Origin: Pseudooceanicola sp.
GTDB taxonomy: Bacteria; Pseudomonadota; Alphaproteobacteria; Rhodobacterales; Rhodobacteraceae
Assembly (NCBI RefSeq): GCF_029213205.1
Contig: NZ_JARGNH010000014.1
Span: forward strand, 1-64,000
Direction: 5' to 3'
DNA length: 64,000 nucleotides
Positions within the stretch are counted from its first letter, which is position 1. Every line of letters starts with the position of its first letter. The position numbers and the translations under genes are program-made. This document shows positions 204-9,729 of this stretch, piece after piece. Under the pieces are notes generated by a model. The model saw only the letters and a program-made list of their open reading frames with translations. It was not told the origin of the DNA and made no database searches.

Positions 204-1049
204 ATGAGCACGAAAAAGAAATGGGCCGAAAAGCAGGCGGAGTTCACCTGGGGAATTGCTTCGCTCTCCCTGTTCGCTGGGCTGTGGGAACTGGTCTGGG
301 CCCTGGGCTGGGCCAATCCCCTGTTGCTGCCGCCACCGCATATATTCTTGTCGGACATACCCGGCACCCTGAAGTTCTTTGACACCTCCAACCAAATCGG
401 CGCGATCGGCGCCGGCGGTGGTGTGATCGCATTGCTGACCACGATCGCCTGGACCACCTTTCGCGTCATGGTCGGGCTATTCATCGGCTTTGTGCTCGGC
501 GTCGCCTCCGGGGCGCTGGTTCGCTACTTCGAACCGGTGCGGAAACTGTTCATGCCGCTGGTCAGCCTGCTGGCGCCGATCTCGCCGGTCGCCTGGTTGC
601 CGGTTTCGATCTTTCTGTTTGGCATTGGGAACGTTCCTGCGATCTTCCTGGTCTTCATCACCGTCTATTTCGCCATCCTGCTCTCGACCCAGAACCAGAT
701 CGAAACCGTGCCGGTGAACTACCTGCACCTGGCACGGATCATGGGCGCATCGCGCTGGCAGACATTCTCTCGCGTGGTGCTGCCAGCCATCCTGCCGGGG
801 CTATTCATGACGCTGCGACTGAACCTCTTCGCCGCTTGGATGGTGGTGCTGATCGCTGAGGCGATCGGCGTCGGCAGCGGGCTGGGCCAGATCGTTTCCG
901 TGGCCCGTTCGACCTTCAACGCCAAGCTGGTGTTCTTCACCATGGGTGTGATCGGTATCGCCGGTTTCACGTTCGATTACGCCCTACGCCAAATCCAGCA
1001 CAAGGTTTTGTGGTGGGTACAGACCAACAACGGAGGGTCGTCGAAATGA
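204..1049 (+). CDS. ABC transporter permease, nitrate/sulfonate/taurine (TauC/SsuC-like) type
   Basis: Multi-TM protein with a BPD permease EAA-like segment (ARIMGASRWQTFSRVVLPAILPGLFMTLR). Confidence 0.9.
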   Translation: MSTKKKWAEKQAEFTWGIASLSLFAGLWELVWALGWANPLLLPPPHIFLSDIPGTLKFFDTSNQIGAIGAGGGVIALLTTIAWTTFRVMVGLFIGFVLGVASGALVRYFEPVRKLFMPLVSLLAPISPVAWLPVSIFLFGIGNVPAIFLVFITVYFAILLSTQNQIETVPVNYLHLARIMGASRWQTFSRVVLPAILPGLFMTLRLNLFAAWMVVLIAEAIGVGSGLGQIVSVARSTFNAKLVFFTMGVIGIAGFTFDYALRQIQHKVLWWVQTNNGGSSK

Positions 1050-1831
1050 ACGCCAGTATCGCATGTAAAAACGTCTCGAAGACCTGGCCTGCGGATCGCG
1101 ATGAGGATCAGGTCGAGGCGCTTCGCTTTGTCAATTTCGACGTCGCCCCGGGCGAGTTCATCATCCTTCTCGGCCCCTCGGGCTGCGGCAAGTCTACCCT
1201 GCTCTACATGATCGCCGGGCTCGAACACCCGACATCCGGCAGCGTCTTGGCCCACGGCACGGCAGTCGACAAGCCCGATGCTGACCGAATCCTGATCTTC
1301 CAGGAGGCATCTCTGTTTCCCTGGCTGACGGTGGCTGAAAATGTCTCTTTCGGGCTGTCCTTGCAGGGCGCCTCAAAGGACGAACGGCGGCAGAAGGCCG
1401 AGGAATTGCTGCAAGAGGTCGGCCTGGCGGCAAGCGCCGACAAGCGACCCGACCAGCTCTCGGGCGGCATGCGACAGCGGGTGGCGGTGGCGCGCGCCTT
1501 GGCGATGCGGCCCAGCATCCTGATGATGGACGAGCCATTTGCCGCGCTCGACGTTCAAACCAGGTCAAAGATGCAGGGTTTCCTGCAACAGATCTGGCGC
1601 GAAAGTGGCGCCTCGGTGGTTCTGGTGACCCATTCCATCGAAGAGGCGATCGCTTTGGCTGACCGGGTGGTCGTCTTCACCGCCCGGCCCGGAAAAGTGA
1701 AGGAAATCGTGCCGATCGACTTGCCGCGGCCACGCAATCCGCGCGATCCGGCTTTCCGCGACCTGCAGGATCATTTGGCCGATCTCCTGGCGGAAGAGGT
1801 CGATAACGCCTTCGAGCAGCAGGAGTTGTAG
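1046..1831 (+). CDS. ABC transporter ATP-binding protein (TauB/SsuB-like)
   Basis: Walker A GPSGCGKSTLL, signature LSGGMRQR, Walker B ILMMDEPFAALD; ATGA overlap with the upstream permease. Confidence 0.93.
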   Translation: MNASIACKNVSKTWPADRDEDQVEALRFVNFDVAPGEFIILLGPSGCGKSTLLYMIAGLEHPTSGSVLAHGTAVDKPDADRILIFQEASLFPWLTVAENVSFGLSLQGASKDERRQKAEELLQEVGLAASADKRPDQLSGGMRQRVAVARALAMRPSILMMDEPFAALDVQTRSKMQGFLQQIWRESGASVVLVTHSIEEAIALADRVVVFTARPGKVKEIVPIDLPRPRNPRDPAFRDLQDHLADLLAEEVDNAFEQQEL

Positions 1832-1833
1832 CG

Positions 1834-2715
1834 GTGACTGCGTCCAGTTTGAACGTCGCCGCACTGCACCTGCCACCGGTGCCGCTCGGTGCCGTGCCGA
1901 TGCCCGAAATCGCACAGCCGTATCTTGACCAGGCGGCAGCGCGCGGGGCGCAGTTGGTGCTGTTGCCCGAAATCTTTGCCTGGCCCTTTTTCGGCGCCTG
2001 CCCGCCAGCCGATTGGCTCCATGCTGCCGAGCCGCTCGACGGGCCGACTGTCGGCTGGGCAGCGCGGCAGGCGACGCGGCTAGGCGTTTCGCTGCTGGTG
2101 CCCTTTGTTCAGGAAAGGCCGGACGGGAAACCACGCAACGCCGTTGCCTTCGTTTCGCCTGCGCGGCCGCCGGAGTTGGTGGCCCAGAAGATTCACCTGC
2201 CCCCCCGCGGCACCGCCCGCTATGGGGAAAGCGACCACTTCTCGCCCGGCCCGCCCATTGTGCGCTGTGTAGAGATTGCCGGGTTTTCGATCGCAGTCTT
2301 CATCTGTTTCGACCGTCGCTTCCCCGAGGTTTGGCGCGCCGCGCGCGCCGCTGGGGCGGACATGATTGCCTGCCCGGTCTCTGGCCCGGCAGACGAACCC
2401 GAGGATTTCTTTCTGACCGAGCTGCGGACCCATGCGCGAGAGAACGGCCTCTACGCTTTGACCGCAGGCCGGACCGGAAACGAAACGATGCCCAATGCGA
2501 ACAGCTTTCACCACAACGCACCGACTGCGCTGGTCCGGCCCGACGGTTCGGTTGCCAGGGTTCTGGAAGCAGAGGCGGCACCGGGCGTCATCTACGATGT
2601 CATCGCGGCGCGCGAAATCGAACGCGCCCGCAGCCAACGACCTCATTTTGAAATGAGGCGCACCATCCGGGGCGACACTGCCCCGCAAGAAGGACGGAAA
2701 GAATGTCTGAACTGA
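1834..2715 (+). CDS. Carbon-nitrogen hydrolase (nitrilase superfamily)
   Basis: Likely Glu-Lys-Cys triad contexts LLPEIFAWPFF, AQKIHLPP, VFICFDRRFPEVWR; GTG start. Confidence 0.85.
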   Translation: MTASSLNVAALHLPPVPLGAVPMPEIAQPYLDQAAARGAQLVLLPEIFAWPFFGACPPADWLHAAEPLDGPTVGWAARQATRLGVSLLVPFVQERPDGKPRNAVAFVSPARPPELVAQKIHLPPRGTARYGESDHFSPGPPIVRCVEIAGFSIAVFICFDRRFPEVWRAARAAGADMIACPVSGPADEPEDFFLTELRTHARENGLYALTAGRTGNETMPNANSFHHNAPTALVRPDGSVARVLEAEAAPGVIYDVIAAREIERARSQRPHFEMRRTIRGDTAPQEGRKECLN

Positions 2716-4241
2716 TTATCGAGGCGAAATGGATTGTCTGCGGCGTTGTCGATCGCGACAGCGTCGAAATTCTTGAGGATGCGGCGGTGCTGCAGCGTGA
2801 CGGGATCATCGTTGGCTTCGGCTCGGCCGCCGCGCTCCAGGCGCAGGCACCCGAAGCCGAGGTTCGCCGCTACCCGCATCACATGGTGCTGCCTGGCTTC
2901 GTCAACAGCCACCACCATGTCGGCCTGACACCGCTCCAACTCGGCTCGCCGGATTTCCCTCTCGAAATGTGGTTCGCCAGCCGCATCCCGGCACGGTCGA
3001 TCGACCTGTATCTCGACACGCTGTACTCCGCCTTTGAAATGATTTCTTCCGGTATCACCACGGTTCAGCACATCCACGGCTGGATGCGCGGTGGCTACGA
3101 GGTGATCGAGTCCGGCGCGCGCCAGGTGTGCAGCGCCTATCGCGATATCGGTATGCGGGCCTCCTACAGCTTCGCCATGCGTGAACAGAACCGGCTGGTC
3201 TACGAGGCTGACGAGGCGTTCTGTGCCCGTCTGCCAAAAGACCTGGGCGAACAGCTGGCCGTTTTCCTCAAGGCCCAGACCTTGGATCTCGAGGACAATT
3301 TCAAGCTTTTCGACCGCCTGACCGCCGACAATGCCGACGAAGGGCGTGTGGCGATCCAGCTGGCCCCGGCCAACCTTCACTGGTGTTCGGATGACAGCCT
3401 GGTGGCACTGGCGGAGAAGTCCCGCTCGGCGAATGTCCCAATGCACATGCATGTGCTCGAAACCGCCTACCAGAAAGAATATGCGCGTCGGCGCACCGGC
3501 AAGACGGCGGTGCGGCATCTTCACGACCTCGGGGTGCTGGGGCCGAACATGACCATGGGGCACAGTGTCTGGGTGACCGAAGAGGATCTCGAGATCGCCG
3601 CCCATACCGGCACCTGCGTCTGCCACAACTGCTCGTCCAATTTCCGCCTGCGTAGCGGCGTGGCGCCGCTGAACAGCTTTGCCCAAAAGGGGCTGACGGT
3701 GGCGATGGGGCTGGATGAGGCCGGAATCAACGACGACCGCGATATGCTGCAGGAGATGCGGCTGGTGCTGCGGGCCCACCGCACGCCTGGTATGGAGGAC
3801 GATGTCCCGACCTGCCCGCAGGTGCTGCGCATGGCGACCGAGCACGGCGCCCTGACCACCGCTTTCGGCGCCACCATCGGCAAGCTTGAAGCCGGGCGAC
3901 ATTTCGATGCCGTGGTGATCGACTGGAACAAGGCGACCTATCCCTACCAGGACGACGACATCCCGCCGCTTGACGTGGTAATCCAGCGGGCCAAGACCCA
4001 GGATGTCACAGCCGTGTTCTGCGACGGCGAGGCGATCTACGAGGACGGCCGCTTTACCCGGGTCGACCGCGACGCGGTGCTGGAAGAGATTGCCGAGACG
4101 CTGGCCAAGCCGCGCACGGCAGAAGACCTGGCGCGGCGCGCGCTGGGCCATCAGGTGCTGCCGCACGTAAAGAGCTTTTACGACAATTATACCAACGAAG
4201 AGACCCGGGTGCCGTTCTACACGCCGTCCTCGCGGGTCTAA
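2703..4241 (+). CDS. Metal-dependent amidohydrolase/deaminase (AtzB / guanine deaminase-like)
   Basis: LPGFVNSHHHVG metal motif, MHMHVLET, MGHSVW, GLDEAGINDD. Confidence 0.85.
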   Translation: MSELIIEAKWIVCGVVDRDSVEILEDAAVLQRDGIIVGFGSAAALQAQAPEAEVRRYPHHMVLPGFVNSHHHVGLTPLQLGSPDFPLEMWFASRIPARSIDLYLDTLYSAFEMISSGITTVQHIHGWMRGGYEVIESGARQVCSAYRDIGMRASYSFAMREQNRLVYEADEAFCARLPKDLGEQLAVFLKAQTLDLEDNFKLFDRLTADNADEGRVAIQLAPANLHWCSDDSLVALAEKSRSANVPMHMHVLETAYQKEYARRRTGKTAVRHLHDLGVLGPNMTMGHSVWVTEEDLEIAAHTGTCVCHNCSSNFRLRSGVAPLNSFAQKGLTVAMGLDEAGINDDRDMLQEMRLVLRAHRTPGMEDDVPTCPQVLRMATEHGALTTAFGATIGKLEAGRHFDAVVIDWNKATYPYQDDDIPPLDVVIQRAKTQDVTAVFCDGEAIYEDGRFTRVDRDAVLEEIAETLAKPRTAEDLARRALGHQVLPHVKSFYDNYTNEETRVPFYTPSSRV

Positions 4242-4268: not shown

Positions 4269-4290
4269 CGCCCCCGCTCACGCGGGGGCG
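4269..4290. repeat. Intercistronic GC hairpin cgcccccgc-tcac-gcgggggcg
   Basis: Perfect 9-bp stem with a 4-nt loop between two co-directional genes. Confidence 0.7.
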
Positions 4291-4300
4291 ACGGGATGAC

Positions 4301-5044
4301 ATGCGCCTTCTTCTACTGAACGGAAACACCACCACCGCGATGACCGATCTATGCGCCGTCACAGCCCGAAGGGTGGCGCGGACAGGCACCGAGATCGTGC
4401 CGCTGACCGCATCCGAGGGCTCCGCGGTGATCACCACCAGGACCGAGAACGCCCTCGCCGAGGGACCGCTGCTGGAACTGCTTGCCAAACATGGCGACGG
4501 CGCCGAAGGTGTCTTGGTCGCGGTGTCCTTCGATACCGCGCTTGCGCCGCTGCGCGAGGCCGCGCGGGTGCCGGTCGTCGGCATGACCGAGGCGGCGCTG
4601 CATGTCGCCGCGCTGCTGGGCGGGCCGATCGGCTTTGTCGGGCCAGGCCTGCGCGCCCGCAACATCTATCGCGACGTCATCATCCAGAGCGGATTGAGCG
4701 ACCGGGTGACCGGGATCGCGACGCTCGACCTAACGCCCGAAGAATACCTCTCGCCCGAAGCCACCTGTGACCGGATCGTCGCTGCGGCGCAGACACAAAT
4801 CGCAGAAGGCGCCGAGAGCATCGTCCTGGCCGGCGCGGCGATGGCAGGCATGCAGCAGGCGGTGCAGGAAGCGCTGCCGGTTCCCGTGGTCGAGGGCATC
4901 GCCGCGGCTGTCGTGCTGCTCGAAGGTCTGGTCGATCTGGCCCCGCGCAAGCCTGAGACCGGCAGCTATGCAAGGCTGCCGCCGCGTGACGTCACTCAGC
5001 GTTCACACGCACTCGCCGGGTTGTTCCGGCCCGGGCCGCGATGA
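4301..5044 (+). CDS. Asp/Glu/hydantoin racemase family protein lacking both expected catalytic cysteines
   Basis: MRLLLLNGNTTTAMT N-terminus typical of the family; the two Cys motifs read LVAVSFD and IVLAGAAMAG. Confidence 0.8.
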   Translation: MRLLLLNGNTTTAMTDLCAVTARRVARTGTEIVPLTASEGSAVITTRTENALAEGPLLELLAKHGDGAEGVLVAVSFDTALAPLREAARVPVVGMTEAALHVAALLGGPIGFVGPGLRARNIYRDVIIQSGLSDRVTGIATLDLTPEEYLSPEATCDRIVAAAQTQIAEGAESIVLAGAAMAGMQQAVQEALPVPVVEGIAAAVVLLEGLVDLAPRKPETGSYARLPPRDVTQRSHALAGLFRPGPR

Positions 5045-5049
5045 GCACG

Positions 5050-5763
5050 TTACAGGCGCGTCATCTCGGCCCCGTCGCGCCACTTGCGAACCTCATCGCG
5101 CAGCACGGCTTCGAGATCGCTCTTCACCGGGGTCGTCGCCGTCGGCTTGAACCGTCGTTCGACCTTCAGCAGATGCGCGGCCATCGCATCAGCTGCGGCC
5201 GGCCCGTCGCGCTCTTCGATCGCATCGCAGATCCCGCGATGCTCGCTGATGCTGGTGTGGTGTTGCAGCGTGGCATCGAAATAGCTGTCCAGCATGATGG
5301 TGCGGATCAGCAATTCCTGCATCTGGCGGATGATGAAATCGTTCGCAGTCAGCTTGGCGAGTTCCAAATGGAACCCGCCGGACAGTCGATTCGAGGTCGC
5401 CAAGTCGCGCCCCAAAGCCGCATCTTCGATCTCGACATGGGCCTTGAGCCTGGCGAGATCCGTGTTGCTCGCGGTTTCGACGACCGACAGAACGATTCCG
5501 GTCTCGACGACGCGGCGGGCCTCGTAAAGCTGTCTGGTTTCGTCCAGCCCGGCATTGACGACGAAAGCCCCGCGATTGGGGATGAGGTCGATCAGCCGCT
5601 TGTGGCCAAGCTTGTGCAGAATCTTGCGAATTCGTTCCCGCGTGACGCCGAAAACCGCGACGAGTTTCAGTTCTCCCAGTTGCGTACCAGGCGCGAGCCG
5701 CGCCGACAGCAGCGTGTTGGTCAGGATCTCGTAAATCGCGTCTTCGTCAATCGTGGGGCACAT
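5050..5763 (-). CDS. GntR family transcriptional regulator (FCD/FadR subfamily)
   Basis: N-terminal wHTH (TQLGELKLVAVFGVTRERIRKILHKLGHKRLIDLIPNRGAFV) plus FCD C-terminal domain. Confidence 0.9.
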   Translation of the reverse strand: MCPTIDEDAIYEILTNTLLSARLAPGTQLGELKLVAVFGVTRERIRKILHKLGHKRLIDLIPNRGAFVVNAGLDETRQLYEARRVVETGIVLSVVETASNTDLARLKAHVEIEDAALGRDLATSNRLSGGFHLELAKLTANDFIIRQMQELLIRTIMLDSYFDATLQHHTSISEHRGICDAIEERDGPAAADAMAAHLLKVERRFKPTATTPVKSDLEAVLRDEVRKWRDGAEMTRL

Positions 5764-5933: not shown

Positions 5934-7253
5934 ATGACCGCCAACCAGCTGACCGTCTCGCAGGCCCTCGAACGAATGCGCCGGGGCCTTCTGTCGCCAC
6001 AGGAACTGCTGACCGATTGTCTCGACCGGATCAGGCAGAAGGAAGACTCGACCCAGGCATGGCTCCATCTTGACGCCGAGGCGGCACAACGGTCTCTGGC
6101 CGCGCCGGACAAGGCGGCGGGCCAGCGCCTGCTGCCGGGCATCCCGGTGGGGATCAAGGACATCATCGACGTCCGCGGCATGCCGACCAGTTGCAATTCG
6201 CCGGCCAGTTCACACGACGCGGCGACGCGCGACGCGGCCTTCGTCGGACTTCTGCGCGCACAGGACGCGGTGATATTGGGAAAGACGGACACGGTCGAGT
6301 TTGCCTCGGGCGGGCGCCGCGCCCGGACCCGCAACCCGCATGATCCCCTGCGGACGCCAGGGGCGTCCTCGTCGGGATCGGCGGCGGCGGTTGCTGATTT
6401 CATGGTGCCGCTGGCCTTCGGCACCCAGACGGCGGGCTCGGTCATCCGCCCGGCGGTGTTCTGCGGCATCTACGGCTTCAAGCCCAGCCATGGCGCAATC
6501 AGCCTCGAAGGCGTCAAACCCGTCGCGCCCAGCGTCGACACGCTGGGCTGGTTTACGCGCTCCGCGGCTGACCTGGCGCTCGTCGCTGGTGGCCTCGGCC
6601 TCGCCCTGCCAGCCGCCACCGCCCCTTCGGTCGGGCTGAAGGGCTTGCGACTGGGGCTGTGTCGCACGCCCTATTGGCACCGCGCCGAGCTGGCCGGACG
6701 GGCTGTGCTCGACCGGGTTGCGGATCGCCTCAGCGCGGCCGGGGCGGAGCTGGTCGAGATCACCCTACCCGCGCCGTTCGACGGGCTGGCCGAGGCGCTC
6801 GACATCATCAGCCAGGCCGAGGGCGGGCGAGCGCTGCAGACAGAATACGTGACGCAGGGGACGCGTCTGGCCCCGGACTTCCGCCAGCGGGTCGAACAGG
6901 CATCTGCCCTCTCCGCCAACGAATTGCTGCCGGCGCTCGACCTCGTGGCGGCCTGCCGTCCCGCCTTTGACGCGCTGTTTCGCGATGGTCCCGACGCGCT
7001 GATCACGCTGGCTGCGCCCGGGGTTGCACCGCTGCTGGCCAAGGGGACAGGCGACCCGATCTTCTGCGGGATGTGGACCGCGCTCCATGCGCCAACCCTC
7101 GCCATTCCCGCCGGACGAGATCCGACCAGCGGGATGCCCATCGGGATACAGATCGTCGGCGCACGCCAGTCCGACGGGGCATTGCTGGCGCTTGGCGAGT
7201 GGATCGCCAAGGTGATAGATCCGGCAGCTTCGCCGGCCCGCGAGGAGAATTGA
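5934..7253 (+). CDS. Amidase (amidase signature family)
   Basis: GIPVGIKDIIDVRG, GASSSGSAAAVA and GTQTAGSVIRPA contain the Ser-cisSer-Lys residues. Confidence 0.92.
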   Translation: MTANQLTVSQALERMRRGLLSPQELLTDCLDRIRQKEDSTQAWLHLDAEAAQRSLAAPDKAAGQRLLPGIPVGIKDIIDVRGMPTSCNSPASSHDAATRDAAFVGLLRAQDAVILGKTDTVEFASGGRRARTRNPHDPLRTPGASSSGSAAAVADFMVPLAFGTQTAGSVIRPAVFCGIYGFKPSHGAISLEGVKPVAPSVDTLGWFTRSAADLALVAGGLGLALPAATAPSVGLKGLRLGLCRTPYWHRAELAGRAVLDRVADRLSAAGAELVEITLPAPFDGLAEALDIISQAEGGRALQTEYVTQGTRLAPDFRQRVEQASALSANELLPALDLVAACRPAFDALFRDGPDALITLAAPGVAPLLAKGTGDPIFCGMWTALHAPTLAIPAGRDPTSGMPIGIQIVGARQSDGALLALGEWIAKVIDPAASPAREEN

Positions 7254-8507
7254 ATGGATGAAACCGAACGCGAGGCCGGCCGCCAGCTGATGCGGCGGTG
7301 CGACCAGCTGGCAAGGTTCAGCGAGACGCCGGAGCACCTGACGCGGCGCTTCCTGACCGAACCTTACCGGGCCGCCCTCGACCAGGTGGCCGCCTGGATG
7401 CGTGGCGCCGGCATGGAGCCGCACAGCGACGCCGCCGGCAACCTGATCGGTCGTTACGAGGGCCAGCAGCCGGACAAGCCGGTGTTGCTGCTGGGCAGCC
7501 ATATCGACACTGTTGTTGGTGCCGGGCGCTATGATGGCATGCTGGGCGTTCTGGCCGCGATCGCTTGCGTCGAGCGGATGCAGGCCACGGGCTATCGCCC
7601 ACAACACCCGGTTGAGGTGATCGTCTTCGGCGACGAAGAGGGCGCCCGGTTCGGCGTCGCGATGATCGGCAGCCGGGCCTTTACCGGAACACTGCCGACA
7701 GAATGGCTGGACAAGACCGACGCCAGCGGCATGTCGCTGGCCTGCGCCCTGCGCGCCTACGGGCTCGCGCCCGACCGCCTGGGCGCGGCGCGGCGCGACC
7801 CGGCAACGCTGCTTGCCTATCTGGAATTGCATATCGAGCAGGGCACCAGGCTTGAACAGGCAGGTCTCCCGGTGGCCGCAGTCACCCGGATCAGCGCGGT
7901 AAAGCGGGCCCGGTTGCGCCTCACCGGGGCGTTGGGTCACGCGGGAACGGTCGCAATGTCCGAACGCCGCGATGCGCTGACCGGGATGGCAGAGGTCGTT
8001 CTCGCCGTCGAGGCGCTGGCGCGGCGTGGCGCTTGCATCGCCACCGTCGGCAACGTTACGGCCAAGCCCGGCGCCGCCAATGTCATCGCCGGCCATGCCG
8101 AGGCGCTCCTTGATATCCGCGCGCCCGAGAACGCGGCGCTGGAGGCCGCGTTGGCCGAGTTGACCACCACCGGCCAGGCCATTGCGACCCGCCGCGGCCT
8201 GAGCTTCACCGTCGAGACCTTCTATCATGCCCCGTCGGCCGCCTTCGCGCCCGGGTTGGTCCGGCTGGCCCAGCAGGCTCTGGGCCCTAGGGGGGCCGCC
8301 GCACCGGTGTTGATCAGCGCCGCCGGGCACGATGCCGCCATGCTGGCGCCGCTCGTTCCCTCGGTGATGCTTTTCGCCCGCTGCCGCGGCGGCATCTCGC
8401 ACGCGCCAGAAGAAGAAATCACCGCCGAGGACGCGGCGGCGGCGATCACTGCCTTTTCCACGCTGGTCGATCTGGTAGATCGCGCCGGCCCTGCCGCAAC
8501 CGTTTAA
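7254..8507 (+). CDS. M20 family hydrolase, N-carbamoyl-L-amino-acid hydrolase / allantoate amidohydrolase-like
   Basis: LLGSHIDTVVGAGRYDG, VFGDEEGARFG, LELHIEQGTRLEQ. Confidence 0.9.
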   Translation: MDETEREAGRQLMRRCDQLARFSETPEHLTRRFLTEPYRAALDQVAAWMRGAGMEPHSDAAGNLIGRYEGQQPDKPVLLLGSHIDTVVGAGRYDGMLGVLAAIACVERMQATGYRPQHPVEVIVFGDEEGARFGVAMIGSRAFTGTLPTEWLDKTDASGMSLACALRAYGLAPDRLGAARRDPATLLAYLELHIEQGTRLEQAGLPVAAVTRISAVKRARLRLTGALGHAGTVAMSERRDALTGMAEVVLAVEALARRGACIATVGNVTAKPGAANVIAGHAEALLDIRAPENAALEAALAELTTTGQAIATRRGLSFTVETFYHAPSAAFAPGLVRLAQQALGPRGAAAPVLISAAGHDAAMLAPLVPSVMLFARCRGGISHAPEEEITAEDAAAAITAFSTLVDLVDRAGPAATV

Positions 8508-8952: not shown

Positions 8953-9729
8953 CTACCGGGCGTGCAGGGCAGCCGGATCGAAACCGGCATAGGCTGGGAA
9001 TACGCTGCCCCAGCCAGTCACCCGGTTGGGATCGAGGCCGACAAGGCGCATTGTCTGGGCTGCGGTGATCGCGATGCTGTCGATCACCGGAATGCCGACC
9101 TCGGCCTCCAGCGCCGCGGCGACCTCTGCGCCACGGAAATTTGTGCAGGTGATCGCGATGGCATCTGGCTCAGCGCGGGCGACGCGGCGCACCATGTCGG
9201 CGACCTGGTCGGGCGCGTAGCTGCCGAAAGAGAAGTTGCCACGATCCTCCAGCCGCTGATCCGCAACCACTTCGATCCCGGCCGCATTGTAATTCTCGAT
9301 AATGCGGTCCTGGATCTCGGACAGGTAGGGCGTGACGAGGCCGATCCGTCGCACCTTGGAGAGACGGAAATAGTTGTCGAAGGCCAGCATCGTCGACGTT
9401 GCGGGAATGCCGGTCGCCTCGGTGATTGCCCGGCACAGGGCGCGGTCTCGGTCGAGGCCAAGCCAACTCGCCGAGGTGCCGTTCCAAGCGATGCAATGCG
9501 GGCGGGCCTCGGCCAATAGCCCGGCGGCCTCAAGGATCGGCGCAATCTCGAACTGGCTCTGCGACGCGCCTGACAGCGAGATCTCGACGACCCGGAAACG
9601 GCTGAAATGCACGCTGCCGGCCTCACCGAAAGGCGCGAACATGGCGGCGCTATAGGGTTCGAGCACCGTGTTGGAAGAGGGGGTGAGCATCCCGACGCGG
9701 CGATGATCTGTGGGTTGGTGGGTGGTCAT
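8953..9729 (-). CDS. Asp/Glu racemase superfamily protein, maleate isomerase / arylmalonate decarboxylase-like
   Basis: Family fold with AWNGTSASWLG in place of the first Cys motif and ITCTNFRG as the second Cys motif. Confidence 0.8.
   Translation of the reverse strand: MTTHQPTDHRRVGMLTPSSNTVLEPYSAAMFAPFGEAGSVHFSRFRVVEISLSGASQSQFEIAPILEAAGLLAEARPHCIAWNGTSASWLGLDRDRALCRAITEATGIPATSTMLAFDNYFRLSKVRRIGLVTPYLSEIQDRIIENYNAAGIEVVADQRLEDRGNFSFGSYAPDQVADMVRRVARAEPDAIAITCTNFRGAEVAAALEAEVGIPVIDSIAITAAQTMRLVGLDPNRVTGWGSVFPAYAGFDPAALHAR

Follow-up and report, generated by a model that had tools for sequence, protein, structure and literature searches.

A conserved variant of the hydantoin/allantoin racemase family without catalytic cysteines, encoded among amide-hydrolase genes of Pseudooceanicola sp.

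Allantoin and hydantoin racemases (EC 5.1.99.3 / 5.1.99.5) possess a catalytic cysteine dyad, Cys79 and Cys184 in KpAllR of Klebsiella pneumoniae (3QVJ/3QVK). The allantoin racemase PfAllR of Pseudomonas fluorescens (5LFD/5LG5), a solved structure with glycine at the first site, is said, after Cendron et al. 2016, to use Glu78, three residues past that site, instead of the first cysteine. In KpAllR numbering, Asn12, Thr118 and Thr119 hydrogen-bond the substrate (PMC12661438). The allantoin-hydantoin subfamily also contains NozR and OpaE (diketopiperazine and oxepinamide isomerases), which expand its substrate range and retain a Cys-Cys dyad that is essential by mutation (PMC10156859, PMC12661438): Cys to Ala exchange in NozR leaves no detectable activity (PMC10156859), while in OpaE one single cysteine mutant keeps 4.8% and C199S and the double mutant ≤0.3% (PMC12661438). 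Arylmalonate decarboxylase (AMDase; G74/C188), a member of the same superfamily whose natural substrate is stated to be unknown, carries glycine followed by Thr-Ser at the first site and cysteine at the second (PMC4996985), and is a precedent for a one-cysteine decarboxylase on the racemase fold. A search of the open-access literature found no description of a cysteine-free member of the family.

The window analysed here is a stretch of 64,000 nucleotides from Pseudooceanicola sp. (contig NZ_JARGNH010000014.1); the contig starts where the window starts, and sequence upstream of position 1 is therefore missing from the gene order. The open reading frame at 4301-5044, initially annotated as hydantoin-racemase-like, was found at these coordinates, with both DNA segments as given in that annotation and a match to PF01177. 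The genes and residues considered below are:

204..1049, plus strand: ABC transporter permease of the Tau/Ssu/nitrate type (PF00528; NCBIfam below cut-off)
1010..1831, plus strand: ABC transporter ATP-binding protein (PF00005)
1834..2715, plus strand: carbon-nitrogen hydrolase, nitrilase superfamily (PF00795)
2703..4241, plus strand: TRZ/ATZ-type amidohydrolase, directly upstream of the racemase-like gene and in the same orientation (PF01979)
4301..5044, plus strand: cysteine-free hydantoin/allantoin-racemase-like protein, "VS-G" class, 247 aa (PF01177, AF2 model, Foldseek)
4523..4525, plus strand: Val75, codon gtg, aligned with catalytic Cys79 of KpAllR (alignments and two models)
4526..4528, plus strand: Ser76, codon tcc, aligned with Phe80 of KpAllR and not with the cysteine; invariant in the clade
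4532..4534, plus strand: Asp78, codon gat, three residues past the lost first cysteine, at the position of PfAllR Glu78 (alignments)
4832..4834, plus strand: Gly178, codon ggc, aligned with catalytic Cys184 of KpAllR (alignments)
5050..5763, minus strand: GntR/FCD transcriptional regulator, convergent with the racemase-like gene (PF07729, PF00392)
5934..7253, plus strand: amidase of the amidase signature family (PF01425)
7254..8507, plus strand: M20 hydantoinase/carbamoylase-family amidohydrolase (TIGR01879, over cut-off)
8953..9729, minus strand: AMDase / maleate-isomerase-like protein (PF17645, PF01177; alignments)

Between the TRZ/ATZ gene and the racemase-like gene lies a perfect 9-bp hairpin, CGCCCCCGC-TCAC-GCGGGGGCG (4269-4290), present as a single perfect copy in the window; it has no T run, and its centroid energy of -21.9 kcal/mol is unexceptional for the composition (z -1.8). 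Elsewhere in the genome a further racemase-like protein is encoded (L002, G000:C53:107495-107983), with cysteine at the first site and aspartate at the second by low-identity alignment (NCFYDPGL / PGDGVMNDF) and no NCBIfam match.

The likely start codon of the racemase-like gene is the ATG at 4301, orthologues opening with the same MRLLLxN. In silico analysis of the 247-residue product gave PF01177 as the sole Pfam match (E 9.1e-35; 120.8 bits against a cut-off of 31) over nearly the whole profile, and by this profile the protein belongs to the Asp/Glu racemase superfamily; no NCBIfam model matched it. The nearest solved sequences by phmmer are PfAllR (5LFD, E 2e-21) and KpAllR (3QVK/3QVJ, 8e-21 and 1e-20). 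A two-domain pseudosymmetric racemase fold is predicted by the AlphaFold2 model (pLDDT 91.7), whose best Foldseek matches are allantoin racemases (TM 0.88 for 3QVJ and 0.90 for 5LFD), whereas the overall TM with AMDase is only about 0.6. Besides fold and length, the query shares with KpAllR (i) Asn12, here Asn9; (ii) Asp82, here Asp78; and (iii) a glycine-rich turn after the second site.

The first site is encoded by gcg gtg tcc ttc gat acc (A-V-S-F-D-T) and the second by ctg gcc ggc gcg gcg atg (L-A-G-A-A-M). At the first, HVIA-C79-F-G-D-P-G of KpAllR faces VLVA-V75-S-F-D-T-A of the query, and since both sequences are equally long from there to the next anchor (PVIG / PVVG) by phmmer, the alignment is ungapped and Cys79 corresponds to Val75. 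The same register is obtained with phmmer against KpAllR, with MAFFT and with hmmalign to a profile of Cys-Cys members, and under the last two methods it holds for 17/17 members of the clade to which the query belongs. In AlphaFold models, the query and L037, a paralogue bearing Cys75, have strand 70-73, helix 81-87 and strand 92-94 at the same residue numbers. The initial annotation was right that both catalytic positions are substituted, as Val75 and Gly178 in all alignments, and that the second cysteine (Cys184) has given way to glycine, but it assigned the first to serine; Ser76 stands one residue off, and the ungapped register, all alignments and the two models rule it out as the direct replacement. 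The query has just two cysteines, C18 and C156; neither is conserved in the clade, and member L050 contains none at all by hmmalign, so that no other cysteine could have taken over catalysis.

In these alignments Val75 and Gly178 occupy the places of the classical dyad, and only Asn9 is kept of the substrate-binding set Asn12, Thr118 and Thr119, the two threonines being replaced by Gly114 and Pro115. The loop-B Val150-Leu151 of Cys-Cys members (97% and 91%) is lost, and the "PVL" motif is absent. PfAllR and the query both lack the first cysteine and carry a carboxylate three residues on; however, PfAllR has Gly rather than Val at the first site, Glu rather than Asp78 at this third position, and keeps the second cysteine where the query has Gly178. 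The Val75-Ser76 and Gly178 of the query likewise differ from the AMDase pattern of Gly-Thr-Ser and Cys, and from NozR and OpaE, in which the dyad is intact.

Whole-genome and genome-contig searches, seeded with the query and an eight-row alignment, yielded about 100 distinct homologues. Their site pairs (class names coined here) are C-C 35, A-G 26, VS-G 17, C-G 16, G-C 6, S-G 1 and C-D 1, counts that are biased towards the query, as was the search model. The VS-G motif, [V/I/M]75-S76-x-D78 with G178, is common to 17 sequences from several families, mostly Alphaproteobacteria and at least one from another class (G518); no viral homologues were found. These sequences form one clade in a maximum-likelihood tree built without the motif columns (SH-aLRT 97), on which the site-pair states change only 6 times over 101 rows. 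VS-G would close a series that runs from C-C through C-G and A-G, for which confidence is moderate, the deeper branching order having a support of 85 in a tree made by a quick method.

Within VS-G (n=17), S76, D78, E97 and G178 are conserved at 100% and R47 at 94%. Serine at position 76 is unique to this class, the residue being phenylalanine in 91-100% of C-C, C-G and A-G sequences. Arg47 is found in 94/80/93% of VS-G/A-G/C-G members, and His, Tyr or Phe stands there in C-C; as the loss of the second cysteine to glycine goes together with this arginine, the pocket is remodelled and not eroded. The substrate-contact Asn is retained in all classes, while the Thr118/Thr119 positions are mostly lost in VS-G (Phe in 70% at 119). 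The C-G and A-G classes (e.g. L029, L044, L116) share with the query Arg47 and the Gly178-Ala-x-x-A-G turn, and A-G shares the cysteine-free state and the type of cluster as well; in contrast to the query, C-G retains the first cysteine, and A-G has Ala-Phe-Gly-Asp-Pro-Gly where VS-G has Val-Ser-Phe/Tyr-Asp-Thr.

The gene is accessory, as only this genome of the 23 in its genus has one, and it was likely acquired by horizontal transfer. Such rarity is what a decayed racemase copy heading for loss might show, yet this explanation is highly improbable: the reading frame is intact, conservation is strong, and all 17 clade members, from several families, share the substitutions. Clade-wide conservation of the replaced residues refutes decay, and no member of the clade carries the normal cysteines. 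At the level of sequence, the gene is a real, conserved variant of the racemase family and not a broken one.

A classical two-cysteine proton shuttle is impossible for this protein because both thiols are gone, and to this extent the initial claim that a two-base racemase mechanism cannot operate stands; in its general form the claim is overstated, given PfAllR with its glycine first site. By the reported use of Glu78 in PfAllR, loss of the first cysteine alone would not preclude proton transfer. A true racemase or epimerase with non-cysteine bases could rely on Asp78, at the position of that glutamate, and acidic C-H substrates such as 5-substituted hydantoins or dihydropyrimidines would need only weak bases; hydantoinase genes lie near 17/26 A-G relatives, a setting in which hydantoin racemases are useful. 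On the other hand, the second site offers no comparable substitute, with neither acid nor base at Gly178 or three residues on (Met181), cysteine mutants of NozR and OpaE are dead or nearly so (PMC10156859, PMC12661438), the threonine contacts and loop B are changed, and a PRK13404-type hydantoinase is absent from the first 13 kb of the window. Ordinary racemisation by the query is thus unlikely, and the racemase explanation as a whole is improbable, although better placed than decay.

The leading explanation, at about even odds, is that the query, a member of the conserved cysteine-free VS-G subfamily, works as an enzyme in a catabolic cluster for cyclic amides, imides or ureides. The partners in such a pathway would be the TRZ/ATZ amidohydrolase, the carbon-nitrogen hydrolase, the amidase, the M20 carbamoylase and ABC uptake. 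The retention of Asn9, Asp78 and the Gly178-Ala179 turn suggests that the racemase pocket may still bind a small amide- or ureide-type molecule; with the Thr118/Thr119 positions and the loop-B motif altered, this substrate is probably not allantoin. A group other than a thiol would serve as the catalytic base; the best candidate is Asp78, perhaps with Arg47, Glu49, Ser76 and Thr79; however, Asp78 may be structural, being invariant in the Cys-Cys racemases as well as in VS-G and A-G. As the second site holds nothing comparable to Glu78/Asp78, racemisation would be a less likely outcome than a one-sided reaction of acid/base type, such as tautomerisation, decarboxylation, elimination or hydration.

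The main rival to such a catabolic enzyme is a binding protein, namely a non-catalytic pseudoenzyme that would hold a hydantoin- or ureide-like metabolite and serve as sensor, chaperone or regulatory partner of the cluster hydrolases. The exchange of both thiols for inert Val and Gly speaks for it, as does the absence of any evident substitute for the second thiol, and hetero-oligomers would be permitted by racemase-like genes lying near each other: VS-G with C-G (L036/L037, at 4.4-5.1 kb and 6.0-6.7 kb), VS-G with A-G (L115) and A-G with A-G (L145, L152). Pairing with a second racemase-like subunit is not a fixed arrangement, though, for it occurs at few loci and most have no racemase-like partner; moreover, the fixed polar residues S76, D78, R85 and E97, and mostly R47, in 17 sequences exceed the needs of a scaffold. 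Conservation and operon context favour an enzyme over a binding protein, which is a somewhat doubtful explanation but a stronger one than the racemase.

The gene neighbourhoods of relatives were surveyed in 79 stretches with 85 racemase-like genes (the VS-G locus L035 = L110 being counted twice). Cysteine-free members were found near hydantoinase, PuuE-like, amidase or TRZ/ATZ genes. Within 8 kb, a hydantoinase accompanies 19/43 cysteine-free against 4/42 Cys-bearing genes, an amidase 15/43 against 3/42, a PuuE-like gene 19/43 against 8/42, and an AMDase-like gene 16/43 against 0/42 (Fisher p 5.5e-6); p-values in this comparison do not correct for relatedness, and the neighbour profiles derive in part from the surveyed loci themselves. 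The AMDase-like enrichment is unchanged at a looser cut-off. A reverse search with the AMDase-like family gave 30 places. An A-G or VS-G gene lies within about 9 kb at 12 of them and a C-C or C-G gene at none; the other 18 are without any of these classes. The AMDase-like gene is no obligate partner, as 18 AMDase-like loci selected from outside the existing set have no hydantoin-racemase-like gene; a hydantoinase is present in the stretch at 10/18.

Members of the AMDase-like family have the site arrangement of AMDase, Gly-Thr-Ser in the first and Cys in the second, but by alignment are only distant kin of AMDase itself. The family's representative in the window (8953-9729, minus strand) has WNGTSASW and CTN as its first and second sites, an AMDase-type Gly/Cys pattern with Thr-Ser, yet its TPSSN N-terminus resembles maleate isomerases. 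In other genomes the AMDase-like gene often stands beside a PRK13404-type hydantoinase.

The same module of ABC transporter, carbon-nitrogen hydrolase and TRZ/ATZ genes lies beside the VS-G protein of the window and beside an A-G protein (L122 = G554). On plasmid pMaq22A_2p of Methylobacterium aquaticum (L178), the module of ABC transporter, carbon-nitrogen hydrolase and amidohydrolase, the last 74.5% identical in DNA to that of the window, has no racemase-like gene and adjoins a polysaccharide-deacetylase-family (PuuE-like) gene. As the module there lacks the racemase-like gene and has the PuuE-like gene instead, the racemase-like protein is not indispensable. Cyclic imide hydrolases are among the members of the PuuE-like fold family (PMC9304392).

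A wider proposal, held tentatively, is that the A-G and VS-G branch constitutes a catalytic class new to the racemase fold, which would carry out a different, non-thiol reaction on cyclic or ring-opened amide intermediates, in one pathway with the AMDase-like decarboxylase/isomerase and a hydantoinase. The proximity of cysteine-free members to AMDase-like and hydantoinase genes offers a testable pathway lead for such decarboxylase-like proteins. The gradation from C-C through C-G and A-G to VS-G is a natural experiment in the repurposing of a two-thiol racemase pocket. For such proteins the database label "aspartate/glutamate racemase family" misleads, since the defining residues of the activity are missing from a substantial, conserved branch.
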